From: Candidatus Pacearchaeota archaeon CG06_land_8_20_14_3_00_35_12
Lineage (GTDB): Archaea; Nanobdellota; Nanobdellia; Pacearchaeales; PEVX01
Length of the DNA: 37,146 bases
NCBI GenBank assembly: GCA_002780285.1
Contig: PEVX01000017.1
Span: 1-37,146, forward strand
Direction: 5' to 3'
The translations under genes were made by a program, and so were the position numbers. The notes under the pieces are model-generated. The model had not been told where the DNA came from and made no database searches. It was given only the letters and a program-made list of their open reading frames with translations. Positions 9,627-21,287 of the stretch are shown here, one piece after another (within the stretch, counting starts at the first letter, position 1; every line of letters starts with the position of its first letter).

Positions 9627-10835
9627 TCAAGATTTTAAGGCAAGAGTCTCCTCAAGAATCGCCTTAACCTTTGGAATAAGATTCTGAGGAATGGCGAGAC
9701 TTATTTCTTTAGTCCTGCCATATCTCCCCTTAGATATCACTGTTGAATTTATCAGTCCAAACATTGCCCATTCTTCAATAATATCTCCTACTCTTCTCTG
9801 AGTTAATACTTCTGTGTTTACTTTTTGGCAAAGCTGGGAATATGTATTGTATATCTCGCTTGTAGAAATTTTTTTATTTCCATCTTTTAATAAATCAAGG
9901 ATTGTAAGCAAAGTTATCTGAAATTGCTTTGGCTCTGTTTGAACAACATCTAAAATTTTATCCCGTTCAATCTCATTATTCGCTTTATCAACATAATGCA
10001 TAGAAACTTTTTTTTGACCTTCTCTTTCTGCCAATTCTCCAGAAATTCTTAATAAATCTAACGCACGTCTTGCATCTCCATGCTCTAAGGCAGCAAGAGC
10101 TGCAGCTTTTTCAAGAACGCCTTCTTCAAGTGCTCCTTTTTTAAAAGCTTCTTTTGCTCTTTCTCTAAGGATATCTTGTAATTGAATTCCATTATAGGGC
10201 GGAAAAGTAATCTCTTCCTCGCCAAGCGAGCTTCTAACGCGAGGATCTAAATTATCTAAAAAAGTAAGATCATTACTGATCCCAATAATTACTATTTGCG
10301 TTTTCTCAAGTTCAGAATTTAATCTTGTTAAATTATATAAGAATTGATCTCCAATTCTCTTTACAGCCTCATCAATTTCATCTAAAATTAAAAGAATTAA
10401 TTGCTTTTTTTGTTCAATCAAATCTATAAACCGATTATAGACTTGATTTGTAGGAAGTCCTGTTGTGGGAACTTCTCCACCCAATTTTCTTATTAACTCA
10501 GCAAGAATTCTATATTCAGTATCAGAGATTTTCCTTAATTTACAATTAAGATATTCTATTGCAAGAGGAACTTTAAACTCTTTACTTTTCCGGAGGAGTT
10601 CATCTCTGATATAGAGAATGCTTAATGTTTTTCCTGTTCCAGTTTTTCCATAAACAAAAAGATTAGAACTCCTTTCCATTTTTAAAGCAGGAGCAAGAAT
10701 AGAGGCAATCTTCTTTATTTGCTCATCTCTATGAGGTATTGTTTCGGGAGTATAGTTTGTCTGAAGCTTAGATTTATCCTTAAAAATTTCCCCTTTAGAG
10801 AAAGCATCAAAAATTTTATCTAGTTTTATTGCCAT
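9627..10835 (-). CDS. cdc6: Orc1/Cdc6 replication initiator
   Basis: AAA+ Walker A VYGKTGTGKT, Walker B LILLILDEIDEA, sensor region, C-terminal winged helix; lies beside ORB-like motifs. Confidence 0.95.
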   Translation of the reverse strand: MAIKLDKIFDAFSKGEIFKDKSKLQTNYTPETIPHRDEQIKKIASILAPALKMERSSNLFVYGKTGTGKTLSILYIRDELLRKSKEFKVPLAIEYLNCKLRKISDTEYRILAELIRKLGGEVPTTGLPTNQVYNRFIDLIEQKKQLILLILDEIDEAVKRIGDQFLYNLTRLNSELEKTQIVIIGISNDLTFLDNLDPRVRSSLGEEEITFPPYNGIQLQDILRERAKEAFKKGALEEGVLEKAAALAALEHGDARRALDLLRISGELAEREGQKKVSMHYVDKANNEIERDKILDVVQTEPKQFQITLLTILDLLKDGNKKISTSEIYNTYSQLCQKVNTEVLTQRRVGDIIEEWAMFGLINSTVISKGRYGRTKEISLAIPQNLIPKVKAILEETLALKS

Positions 10836-10935
10836 TTTCCTCTTTTTTCCCTGTTTTCTTACTTACTTTCTTTCCTTCTTTTTAAAAAAGGTTGTCCTCT
10901 TTTTATAAAGATTATTCAATCAGAAAATAATGATA

Positions 10936-10960
10936 CAGACCTATATTTCCAATGGAACTA
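10936..10960 (-). promoter_or_regulatory. ORB-like origin recognition box 1
   Basis: Minus strand TAGTTCCATTGGAAATATAGGTC resembles the euryarchaeal ORB core TTCCANTGGAAAC followed by a G-stretch. Confidence 0.6.
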
Positions 10961-11140
10961 ATTTTTAATTGAAACAGAGTTTAAAAATTAATCTTATTTG
11001 AAAAGAGATGTCTTTAAATGATTAGTTATAATGCTTATTATTATAATATAATTAATATATAATATATAATATATAATATAAATATTTAAAAAACAAAAAT
11101 ATAATATCGACGAGAAAAAACCCAAAGCTTTTAAAAATCT

Positions 11141-11167
11141 TTCTCCATTGGAAACAAGAGGGTGACC
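11141..11167 (+). promoter_or_regulatory. ORB-like origin recognition box 2
   Basis: TTCTCCATTGGAAACAAGAGGGTGACC; good match to ORB core plus G-rich tail; shares TCCATTGGAAA with box 1 in inverted orientation. Confidence 0.7.
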
Positions 11168-11354
11168 CCTTTTCCGATAGAAAAGCTTATTTCTATATTC
11201 TCCTTTTCTCTCTTAAATTTAAGAAAAAAGGTTAAAAATCCATTAAAATACCTCCTCATTGAATTCTTTTCTTACCTTTTCTCTTTCTTTTTCCTTATAG
11301 TTATACTATTAGAGAATAGAAAAATTTATAAATAAATTATTTATCTAATGAAGC

Positions 11355-16037: not shown

Positions 16038-16115
16038 TTTTTCAATGTTTTGTTTAATTCTTTATACCGAATACTTTTTAAATGTAACTTATTTTCCTTA
16101 TCTTCTGATTGAAAA

Positions 16116-16406: not shown

Positions 16407-17117
16407 TTGAAAAACCAAAAAAGAAAGAAAATGACAGAAGAAGACGCAATACGCGAAGCATTTTCGCGCATAAAACAAGATATCCTTGAATTAAAACAAG
16501 AAATTAGCCTATTAAAACAGGAAATTTATGCTATAAAACAAGATAAGCTTGAAAACCCAACAGATCTCCAACAAATAGCCATAACTGAAGAAAGACCCCA
16601 ACACATAAATCAAGGAGATAAGCCTTATCTCTTAAGTTCCATAGGAAATGATGGGGTTCCAACAGACAAACAGACAGACAACAAACAGACCAACAGACAG
16701 GTTTCTGAAGCATATTTTAAGCTGAATAACTATGCTCCTGAAAAGCAATTTACCGACGATAAACAAGACAATATGTGCCAAAAAGACAACCTAATGGCCT
16801 TGGTTTCAGGGTTAAAAGAAGAATTAAGGCAGAGCTTCCTTAAACTGACAAAACAAGAGTTTCTAGTGTTCTCAGTCATTTATGGCCTTGATGATCAGGG
16901 AGTTCAAGTTACATATCCCGTCGTCGCTGAGAAAACAAAGCTTTCTGAGAGCTCAATACGAGATTATATTCTGAGGATTATGGGAAAAGGCATACCTTTA
17001 GAGAAGCAGAAAATCAACAATAAACAAGTCATAATTAAAGTAAAACCAGAGCTTAGGAACCTTACAACCTTAGATTCTTTGATAAAATTAAGAGAATTTG
17101 GCTTAGATAAGCCTTAG
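16407..17117 (+). CDS. Coiled-coil / Q-T-rich linker / C-terminal HTH protein (paralogue A)
   Basis: Four heptads IKQDILE-LKQEISL-LKQEIYA-IKQDKLE, polar linker TDKQTDNKQTNRQ, C-terminal LTKQEFLVFSVIYGL...VTYPVVAEKTKLSESSIRDYILRIMGKGIPL HTH-like region. Confidence 0.7.
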   Translation: MKNQKRKKMTEEDAIREAFSRIKQDILELKQEISLLKQEIYAIKQDKLENPTDLQQIAITEERPQHINQGDKPYLLSSIGNDGVPTDKQTDNKQTNRQVSEAYFKLNNYAPEKQFTDDKQDNMCQKDNLMALVSGLKEELRQSFLKLTKQEFLVFSVIYGLDDQGVQVTYPVVAEKTKLSESSIRDYILRIMGKGIPLEKQKINNKQVIIKVKPELRNLTTLDSLIKLREFGLDKP

Positions 17118-17429
17118 AAAGCCCTTTTTTTAATCATTTACTATATAAAACAGTCTCATCTTTACGTTATACCGAATATCTTTTAAGAACTATTGATTAT
17201 TGATTTTTTTGCCTTTTTAAGCCTTAATTAACCTATTTTTTGCATTTCTTTTGATGAATTTTAAAGCTTTTTCTCACACTTTTACTTCAACTCTTTCTTT
17301 TTCCCCTCAAACAGTCTTTTTTCTATTTTCTGGCCTTTTACCCCTTTTTCTCTATTTTTTTAATTTTCAGGTCTTTTTAGCCATATCTAATAACTCTCAC
17401 TTTTTCTTTTTCCAGGCTTTTTAGAATTG

Positions 17430-17444
17430 TTAAAGCGAACCTTT
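17430..17444 (+). repeat. Direct repeat TTAAAGCGAACCTTT copy 1
   Basis: Identical 15-mer at 17430 and 17471. Confidence 0.8.
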
Positions 17445-17470
17445 CATAATATTTTTTGCCTTTAAATTCA

Positions 17471-17485
17471 TTAAAGCGAACCTTT
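17471..17485 (+). repeat. Direct repeat TTAAAGCGAACCTTT copy 2
   Basis: Identical to 17430-17444; spacing 41 bp. Confidence 0.8.
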
Positions 17486-17523
17486 ACACCCTCACTTTTC
17501 TATTTTTTACCTATTTTTCTAGA

Positions 17524-18141
17524 CTATTTCTTCATGCTTTTACCTGTTTTTAAGTTCGTTTTAATAGTCTTTAATATCATGGACTTCATTTCATCTGAAA
17601 TGAATATTCGCTTCTTGCCATTTTTCTCAACCATTTCTTCAACTAATCCTTCACTTTTCTGTCTTATGCTGTTTATCTGGCCACGAATAGTTGCTTTATC
17701 TTTTCCCATCAAAGAAGCAACATCTTCATAGCTCAATTTCATGTTTGTATTCAGAAGCACCCAGACAATAGATCTCTCCATTGAAGATAAATTTCTCATT
17801 ACCCCTGTTTGAACAGCTGTTTGAACAGCTGTTTGAACACCTTGAACAGCTGTTTGTTTATGAACAGCTGTTTGTTCATGTTTAAACGGCTGTTTAAAAC
17901 CACGAGTTCCAAACAAAGAAATAAAACTTTTAAGCTCTTCAAATTCAGATTCTACCGTCGACAAACGTTCTCTGAGCTCTTCAATATCTTCAGTATGCCC
18001 CAAAGTGCGATTATTTAGATGGCGGATCCATTCTGCTGTTTTTTTTAAGTCATCTTTAACAGCAGAAAAAGAGTTTTTTATGCCATCTTTGAGCTCATCA
18101 AGGTCGTCATCTCTCTTTTTTCCAAAAAACAACCAGGCCAT
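17524..18141 (-). CDS. Coiled-coil / QTAV-repeat linker / C-terminal HTH protein (paralogue B)
   Basis: N-terminal charged coiled coil, linker HEQTAVHKQTAVQGVQTAVQTAVQTGV, C-terminal LSSMERSIVWVLLNTNMKLSYEDVASLMGKDKATIRGQINSIRQKS HTH-like region alignable by eye with paralogue A; TATA-like TTTATATA upstream. Confidence 0.7.
   Translation of the reverse strand: MAWLFFGKKRDDDLDELKDGIKNSFSAVKDDLKKTAEWIRHLNNRTLGHTEDIEELRERLSTVESEFEELKSFISLFGTRGFKQPFKHEQTAVHKQTAVQGVQTAVQTAVQTGVMRNLSSMERSIVWVLLNTNMKLSYEDVASLMGKDKATIRGQINSIRQKSEGLVEEMVEKNGKKRIFISDEMKSMILKTIKTNLKTGKSMKK
17811..17898. repeat. Intragenic iteron array: GAACAGCTGTTT palindromic units plus TTTAAACGGCTGTTTAAA
   Basis: Exact units at 17811-17822, 17823-17834, 17844-17855, 17862-17873; degenerate unit at 17835-17843; near-perfect 18-bp palindrome at 17881-17898. 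Each exact 12-bp unit encodes QTAV on the minus strand. Confidence 0.9.
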
Positions 18142-18233
18142 AATATTTTATTCTTAACAGCGTATATAAATCTTTTTATTTTCACAAGAATTAAAAACTT
18201 CAAGCACCCATTATTAGCTGTAAAAAAGGGATT

Positions 18234-18296
18234 GAACAGCTGTTTGGAATTGCATTTTACCGACGAAAAAGCACTTAAACAGGTGTTTAAACAGCC
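18234..18296. promoter_or_regulatory. Matching iteron-like motifs in the divergent intergenic region
   Basis: GAACAGCTGTTT at 18234-18245; TTAAACAGGTGTTTAA at 18275-18290 running into TGTTTAAACAGC at 18284-18295, matching 17879-17890 (TGTTTAAACGGC) except one base. Confidence 0.75.
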
Positions 18297-18339: not shown

Positions 18340-18609
18340 ATGGACAAAAAACTACGAGAAAAGCTGCGTTATTTTCATGGCATTTCTAATACTGATAACT
18401 TGCCTCCAGCACCACCCCTTCCAAAATCACCAGTAGATGCAACTTTTCTTTATAGAGCGCCTCGCATAGTTGAGATTGAAGGAAAGATCTACGAAACAGC
18501 TTATGATTATTACATTAGAAAAAGAGATAATGGAGAAGAGATACTTATAACTCAAAAAGCACCATTTCTAAATTATATTGGCTTGGTTCAGAAAATAGAG
18601 AATGCTTAA
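18340..18609 (+). CDS. Small hypothetical protein (start revised from track 18232)
   Basis: ORF from ATG 18340: MDKKLREKLRYFHGISNTDNLPPAPPLPKSPVDATFLYRAPRIVEIEGKIYETAYDYYIRKRDNGEEILITQ...; sequence upstream of this start is iteron-like and AT-rich. Confidence 0.5.
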   Translation: MDKKLREKLRYFHGISNTDNLPPAPPLPKSPVDATFLYRAPRIVEIEGKIYETAYDYYIRKRDNGEEILITQKAPFLNYIGLVQKIENA

Positions 18610-20471: not shown

Positions 20472-21287
20472 ATGATAGACCTTGAAAAATTAAAAACTGA
20501 GATGAAATTGAGAGGATTTACAGATAAAACCATTTCAACATATTTATTTTTCAATGAAAAATTTCTGAATTTTATTGGGAAACAAGAAGCAGAGATAGTT
20601 GGTGATGATATCAAGAAATATTTTGCTTCATTAATGGACAAAAAATCAAGAAACACCATGATGATTGCATATTCTGCATTAAAGTTTTATTATGACGAGA
20701 TCTTGAAAAAAAGCATTTTTCCAGACATTAAATTACCTAAAAAAGAACAGACAATGCCAAATGTCCTTACAAAAGATGAACTCAAAAAACTCATTGATTC
20801 AAGCCAAACAAGAAAAAGTAAATTTATCATTTCATTTCTGTATGCAACAGGCATGAGGGTTTCTGAACTTGTCAATCTGAAAAAAGAAGACATAAATTTA
20901 CAGGAAAAGGTTGGATGGGTTAGAAGAGGAAAAGGCAAGAAAGATAGATTATTTATTATTCCTGAAAAGCTCGTTCCAGAAATTCAATTCTTTATTGACA
21001 ATTCAAAAACACCCTTCCTTTTTTCTAGCAGTAATAAAGATGAGCATTTAACTGCAAGAAATATTCAAAAAATTTTAAAAACAACTGCAAAAATTGCAGG
21101 AATAAGTAAAAAAGTTTCCCCACATACGCTGCGTCATTCATTTGGGACTCATTTGCTTGATTCTGGTGTCGATATTCGCAGAATACAGGAACTATTGGGT
21201 CATTCAAGTCTTCAAACCACACAGATTTACACACATATTTCAACAGAAGAAATTAAAAAAATAAAAAGCCCTTTTGAAGAATTGTAA
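20472..21287 (+). CDS. xerA: Tyrosine recombinase/integrase, XerA-like
   Basis: ATGMRVSELVNLK, HTLRHSFGTHLLDSGVDIRRIQELLGHSSLQTTQIYTH: R...HxxR...H...Y catalytic residues. Confidence 0.92.
   Translation: MIDLEKLKTEMKLRGFTDKTISTYLFFNEKFLNFIGKQEAEIVGDDIKKYFASLMDKKSRNTMMIAYSALKFYYDEILKKSIFPDIKLPKKEQTMPNVLTKDELKKLIDSSQTRKSKFIISFLYATGMRVSELVNLKKEDINLQEKVGWVRRGKGKKDRLFIIPEKLVPEIQFFIDNSKTPFLFSSSNKDEHLTARNIQKILKTTAKIAGISKKVSPHTLRHSFGTHLLDSGVDIRRIQELLGHSSLQTTQIYTHISTEEIKKIKSPFEEL

Follow-up and report, generated by a model that had tools for sequence, protein, structure and literature searches.

Plasmid partition systems such as ParR–parC and TubR–tubC rely on a small adaptor protein whose DNA sites cluster at the operon encoding it, where autoregulation is expected. 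The iterons of the phage lambda origin are located in codons between the two domains of the O protein. They are four in number, each 19 bp long, and place the sites of the initiator O midway along the O gene itself (PMC3985674). In archaea, origin recognition boxes (ORBs) follow the consensus TCCA..GAAA....GGGGT (PMC4164010), while Sulfolobus UBP, which has more than 300 genomic binding sites, ties a non-Orc1 protein and a sequence motif (ucm) to the origin (PMC12141716).

The locus described here lies in the 566-kb genome of a member of the Pacearchaeales (DPANN), and was analysed in a window of 37,146 nucleotides, the whole stretch of DNA under study. Its nearest precedent is lambda ori in the O gene (PMC3985674), where repeated sites likewise sit midway along the gene of the DNA-binding protein that recognises them, self-recognition being very probable in the present case. 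Unlike O, the present protein, a putative initiator at most, is a predicted winged-helix protein of an archaeal cellular chromosome, its sites would be 12-bp palindromes with extra copies upstream, and it is accompanied by a second gene, which has repeats of its own as well as an Orc1/Cdc6 box. As at an archaeal oriC, the ORB (TCCA..GGAAA....GGGGT) fits the consensus and lies close to orc1/cdc6, but it is written in conserved codons of another gene, is usually single, and exists besides an inverted pair upstream of cdc6. Like Sulfolobus UBP/ucm (PMC12141716), the locus links a non-Orc1 protein and a sequence motif to an origin, but unlike those of UBP the predicted sites do not extend beyond a single locus and the gene of the protein itself. 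In contrast to ParR–parC and TubR–tubC, there is no linked motor ATPase, and the sites are mostly in coding sequence. With Lrs14/AbfR2 and MarR-type regulators the likeness is at the level of the winged-helix fold only, and we know of no counterpart among them to the long N-terminal helix, the disordered linker and the intragenic array.

Palindromes in and upstream of gene 1

The two genes and the palindromic elements are as follows.

17524..18141, minus strand: gene 1, a 205-aa protein with an N-terminal helix (5-78), a linker (about 78-118) and a winged helix (120-204)
16407..17117, plus strand: gene 2, a 236-aa protein with a helix (11-49), a disordered linker (50-118) and a winged helix
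17811-17822 and 17823-17834, in gene 1: two abutting GAACAGCTGTTT palindromes, from sequence and codon bias
17844..17855, in gene 1: GAACAGCTGTTT palindrome, from sequence
17862..17873, in gene 1: GAACAGCTGTTT palindrome, from sequence
17881..17898, in gene 1: TTTAAACGGCTGTTTAAA palindrome, read as FKQPFK in a frame other than that of the QTAV copies
18163..18170, minus strand: TATA-like TTTATATA at 22-29 nt upstream of the gene 1 ATG, from sequence only
18234..18245, upstream: GAACAGCTGTTT, identical to the intragenic unit and some 100 nt ahead of the gene 1 ATG
18274..18291, upstream: palindrome CTTAAACAGGTGTTTAAA, roughly 140 nt from the gene 1 ATG, containing TTAAACAGGTGTTTAA (18275-18290) and AAACAGGTGTTT (18277-18288)
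18286-18296, after the upstream palindrome CTTAAACAGGTGTTTAAA: degenerate half-copy TTTAAACAGCC

Structure prediction gives the gene 1 product an N-terminal helix, a disordered linker with QTAV repeats and a C-terminal winged helix. The gene 2 product is predicted to have a similar layout. The closest folds, by structure comparison, are MarR/Lrs14-type DNA-binding proteins, and the gene 1 protein has the predicted winged-helix fold of that superfamily. At the sequence level it could not be placed in a MarR/Lrs14 family: no Pfam family scored above cut-off, and the top DNA-binding match in a PDB sequence search was Lrs14-like, with an E of 0.05. Homologues of gene 1 in contigs were found by alignment search, a single-protein search having given none. 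The gene is single copy in 48 of the 55 genomes of its order, and gene 2 is convergent with it in all 96 loci. An 89-aa ORF without a Pfam match (18340-18609) is divergent from gene 1 in the window; the divergent partner differs from species to species.

The linker codons of gene 1 carry five palindrome copies besides the upstream ones. Allowing up to two mismatches, GAACAGCTGTTT has 19 matches in the window against 4.7 expected, a number reached by none of 100 shuffles, and 14 of the 19 fall at the gene 1 locus (seven sites, each counted on both strands). With up to three mismatches, all eight matches to TTTAAACRGCTGTTTAAA in the window are at this locus (0.3 expected). Throughout the 566-kb genome exact GAACAGCTGTTT occurs in five copies, all at gene 1, and of 11 AACASSTGTT sites six are there. 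Similar distributions were observed in single-contig relatives: four of six AACASSTGTT sites are at the locus in G004 and five of 11 in G039, while G015 has the form CAAACASSTGTYCAAACA at the locus, a pattern found nowhere else in its genome. Thus, the palindromes are confined to, or strongly clustered at, the gene 1 locus in four genomes. A chance origin was rejected, the counts being far above expectation in window and genome; so was a regulon elsewhere in the genome, since the five other AACASSTGTT sites of the host sit within unrelated ORFs.

The initial annotation, which proposed iteron motifs in this interval, gave correct positions and sequences for GAACAGCTGTTT (18234-18245) and TTAAACAGGTGTTTAA (18275-18290), and for TGTTTAAACAGC (18284-18295), which does differ from intragenic TGTTTAAACGGC (17879-17890) at one position; the TATA-like TTTATATA that it named for the minus-strand gene is at 18170-18163. 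Its half-sites AACAGC (18156-18161) and AGCTGT (18216-18221) are also where it placed them, but as six-base matches they are at chance level and were not counted as sites. A dedicated operator or iteron in and upstream of gene 1, as it suggested, is well supported by limitation to the locus, DNA-level constraint in the coding part, upstream recurrence and co-change with the recognition helix; the genome-wide scan it called for found the sites limited to the locus rather than common throughout the genome. It overlooked TTACCGACGAAAAA (18257-18270), a second locus-specific motif of the same interval, as well as the intragenic Orc1/Cdc6 box and the proximity to orc1/cdc6.

Codon constraint and the recognition helix

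The peptide QTxV is conserved in the linker across the homologues of the order, and one might suppose that the QTAV repeats are selected as a peptide, the DNA palindromes being a by-product of codon habits. We consider this highly improbable. In 96 genes, the threonine of the repeat is encoded by ACA in 93% of cases versus 46% elsewhere in the same genes, the valine by GTT/GTC in 97% versus 49%, and the codon of the A/P/G residue ends in T in 96% versus 36%; the bias is thus measured against the genes' own usage, although the 96 homologues are related and such codon statistics overstate independence. At the variable position A, G or P predominates and R also occurs; these are the residues of SST codons, an interchange expected from the palindrome ACA-SS-TGT. 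The same palindrome is also read in a second frame, as KQVF or KQLF (45 cases versus 198 in the QTxV frame), and 42 of the 96 genes use both frames. Further against a peptide-level cause, copies are found in noncoding upstream DNA, the motif switches along with the recognition helix, and the linker is predicted to be disordered. Selection on the peptide was rejected on the codon bias and the two-frame use. Compensatory third-base changes (ACG with NNC) were seen in two cases only, too few to serve as evidence. Judged from these codons, the linker palindrome ACA-NN-TGT is maintained at the DNA level across 96 homologues. More distant homologues have a linker without repeats, so the array is not required throughout the family.

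The palindrome changes with the predicted recognition helix. AAACANNTGTTT/CC is present in the coding sequence of 97 of 100 loci with the helix RGQ, while CGTTCATGAACG is found in the gene in six of eight loci with the helix RRH and in none of the 100 with RGQ; the alternative helix is represented by these eight loci only. The RGQ helix (TIRGQIN or TVRGQIN) is seen in four homologues from other families, which retain AAACAGCTGTCC arrays, and the eight with the helix TVRRHIND have a different linker (VQSFMNV). Because helix and linker palindrome change together, the gene 1 protein very probably binds its own gene and recognises the sites within it. This joint change is the best support for self-binding that comparison of the sequences offers.

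An origin recognition box in gene 2 and the probable oriC

Further elements of the locus and of the region around orc1/cdc6 are listed below.

9627..10835, minus strand: presumed orc1/cdc6 gene, named by sequence similarity and general knowledge; its homologue in G004 is 65% identical, and it is kept as a neighbour in 45 loci
10836..11354: probable canonical oriC, with an inverted ORB-like pair (10936-10956, minus strand; 11144-11164, plus strand) around an AT-rich core
17118..17523: convergent spacer, AT-rich, with strand-specific AAAAGTGAG(AG)TTA repeats, whose complement lies at 17392-17406 and 17489-17500
17430-17444 and 17471-17485: two TTAAAGCGAACCTTT copies in the convergent spacer, from sequence
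18257..18270: element TTACCGWCGANAAA, here TTACCGACGAAAAA, with more copies at 17953-17965 (gene 1) and 16750-16763 (gene 2)
16661..16700, plus strand: ACAGAC-type repeats directly 3′ of the ORB, which the gene 2 protein probably binds
16638..16658, plus strand: ORB TCCATAGGAAATGATGGGGTT in gene 2 linker codons (S-I-G-N-D-G-V), exact match to the consensus from PMC4164010

Motif comparison showed that the gene 2 box, of the form TCC-AYA-GGA-AAT-NNN-GGG-GTT, agrees with the ORB consensus. Of 96 homologues, 95 retain it with no more than one mismatch, 85 of them perfectly. The box also lies within gene 2 in other orders, in frame 0 (SIGNxGV) or frame 2 (VPQExKGS), and its in-gene position across different frames argues for selection at the DNA level. 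Several Pacearchaeales have a second ORB 43 bp before the first, 43 being no multiple of three. The gene 2 ORB is usually single, and an inverted pair around an AT-rich core, as in oriC, was not found at gene 2. In Pacearchaeales the ORB is followed by ACAGAC repeats; elsewhere the repeat is CTCACTCAC or TCAATCA, and the gene 2 helices differ. It is very probable that Orc1/Cdc6 recognises the ORB inside gene 2, and likely, on fewer data than for gene 1, that gene 2 follows the self-site pattern as well.

Genes that we presume, from similarity and general knowledge, to be orc1/cdc6 and DNA polymerase D were frequent near the gene 1/gene 2 pair in a neighbourhood survey. Upstream of cdc6, an inverted ORB-like pair surrounds AT-rich DNA in 37 of 45 loci, which probably marks the canonical oriC; any replication role of the gene 1/gene 2 locus may then be indirect. 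The gene 1 palindrome is in none of these 45 cdc6 upstream regions. The inverted pair makes it less likely that the gene 1/gene 2 locus is the sole oriC; we regard the region as probably a site linked to the origin that carries one or two ORBs. The cumulative GC skew of the window has its minimum at about 18 kb, but the skew is noisy, and its extremes in single-contig genomes fit in G004 and are ambiguous in two others; it decides neither for nor against an origin here.

In the convergent spacers, which are 72% AT, AAAAGTGAGAGTTA repeats are on a single strand only, and AAAGTGAG occurs at 5.4 per kb on one strand (229 copies versus one complement in 96 spacers). The AAAAGTGAG(AG)TTA repeats are found in the convergent spacer of nearly all Pacearchaeales, and ACCGAATA in 40 of 96 spacers, frequently inside a TTCGGTATAACGAA-like palindrome. 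TTATACCGAATA is present at 16062-16073, before the gene 2 operon, and at 17167-17178, directly after gene 2. At the locus the element TTACCGWCGANAAA shows a 15- to 60-fold enrichment, and across 96 relatives it is almost confined there; a tie to oriC, raised by one relaxed copy in the window, was rejected, relaxed matches being found in only five of 45 cdc6 upstream regions. A Xer-type tyrosine recombinase gene lies at 20472-21287 of the window and is a conserved neighbour in 41 loci of the order.

Possible roles in autoregulation, replication and partition

The upstream copies raise the question of whether the gene 1 protein, at upstream and intragenic operators, simply represses its own gene, and perhaps the divergent one, or loops DNA to do so, the gene 2 ORB and the nearby oriC being separate matters. 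In 49 of the 96 loci the 300 nt upstream contain TAAACANNTGTTTA with one mismatch at most (0-1 in shuffled sequences; 0-2 loci in four other flanking windows), and depending on the pattern used 49-63 of the 96 homologues have upstream copies, about half to two thirds of the order. The closest upstream gene varies, 31 of 88 being without a relative in the set, and the upstream sites therefore belong to gene 1. Such regions are divergent promoters in 67 of 75 cases, and the site is at no other promoter of the host genome, all of which would suit autoregulation. The sites are 50-280 nt before the ATG; with none closer than 50 nt the core promoter is free of them, and the coverage expected of a simple repressor is not seen. 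Moreover, other orders keep the intragenic array essentially without upstream copies (none of eight loci with helix RRH, one weak match among four with RGQ), so promoter looping cannot be the general function. Autoregulation as the whole story also leaves the intragenic ORB, the gene 2 repeats, the other locus-specific motifs and the origin link unexplained, and we consider it unlikely. The looping autoregulation proposed by the initial annotation is accordingly possible, but improbable as the main function. The distribution suggests that the array inside the gene probably came first, as the core, with outlying members in the upstream interval; in Pacearchaeales, autoregulation through upstream occupancy is plausible as a side effect.

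Two further readings take the origin link into account. The gene 1/gene 2 region, with its ORB, iterons, AT-rich spacer and strand-specific GTGAG repeats, could be a second or alternative start site, intragenic like that of phage lambda. The near-universal retention of a consensus ORB, the spacer composition and the skew minimum near 18 kb fit this, but the ORB is usually single rather than an inverted pair, the classical oriC arrangement sits upstream of cdc6, and the skew is noisy; a second origin seems to us rather improbable. The proteins of genes 1 and 2 might instead be adaptors with sites in or before their own genes that tether or separate origins at a centromere-like partition site, as in plasmid par. 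The locus is origin-linked and single-copy, has dedicated clustered sites and predicted N-terminal helices, and neighbours the Xer-type recombinase gene in 41 loci, and the order has ParA-type and SMC ATPases. However, no ParA-type or SMC-type ATPase gene is among the conserved neighbours, and the ParA-type genes of the order are located elsewhere in the genomes. A linked ParA/ParM/TubZ-type NTPase, as in plasmid-type partition, was likewise not found among the conserved neighbour clusters (AAA_31 genes lie elsewhere), and we view a partition site with similar doubt.

The reading we favour, with some confidence, is that palindromes, gene 2 repeats and ORB together form an origin-linked multi-site nucleoprotein complex of the locus's own winged-helix proteins and Orc1/Cdc6, which would control initiation or origin handling. 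Its support from the sequence is DNA-level selection in two genes, dedication to the locus, the intragenic ORB and the linkage to cdc6 and the origin; binding by own product, oligomerisation and the replication role are what we infer. The palindromes (core ACA-NN-TGT, best form TTAAACAGCTGTTTAA) would be sites for the winged-helix protein of the gene that contains them, with AAACAGCTGTTT as the predicted target of the gene 1 protein. The core of the array would be written in the codons of the disordered linker, the two full upstream sites being outlying members of the same array. Together with convergent gene 2, its repeats and its Orc1/Cdc6 box, this array may assemble a multi-site nucleoprotein complex beside oriC, in which the two proteins, joined through their N-terminal helices, could bring the sites together. 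With both proteins and Orc1/Cdc6 on the locus, initiation of replication or the handling of the newly copied origin might be controlled, and feedback on own expression would probably follow from upstream occupancy. More tentatively, and at somewhat less than even confidence, this two-gene module beside oriC in a DPANN class, with self-sites in linker codons and an Orc1/Cdc6 box in one gene, may act as an intragenic, bipartite origin or centromere of a cellular chromosome, with coding sequence and protein specificity evolving jointly.

Control of replication and segregation in DPANN archaea is little understood, and in the open-access papers searched the origin of replication of Pacearchaeota is mentioned only in passing. 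The gene 1/gene 2 locus suggests that one or other of these processes has a control site not described before, and the origin-linked pair, with its self-sites and intragenic ORB, provides two candidate proteins with exact DNA targets. It also illustrates with unusual clarity how selection on DNA can dictate protein sequence, and the joint switch of helix and site would allow DNA recognition to be read off genomes.
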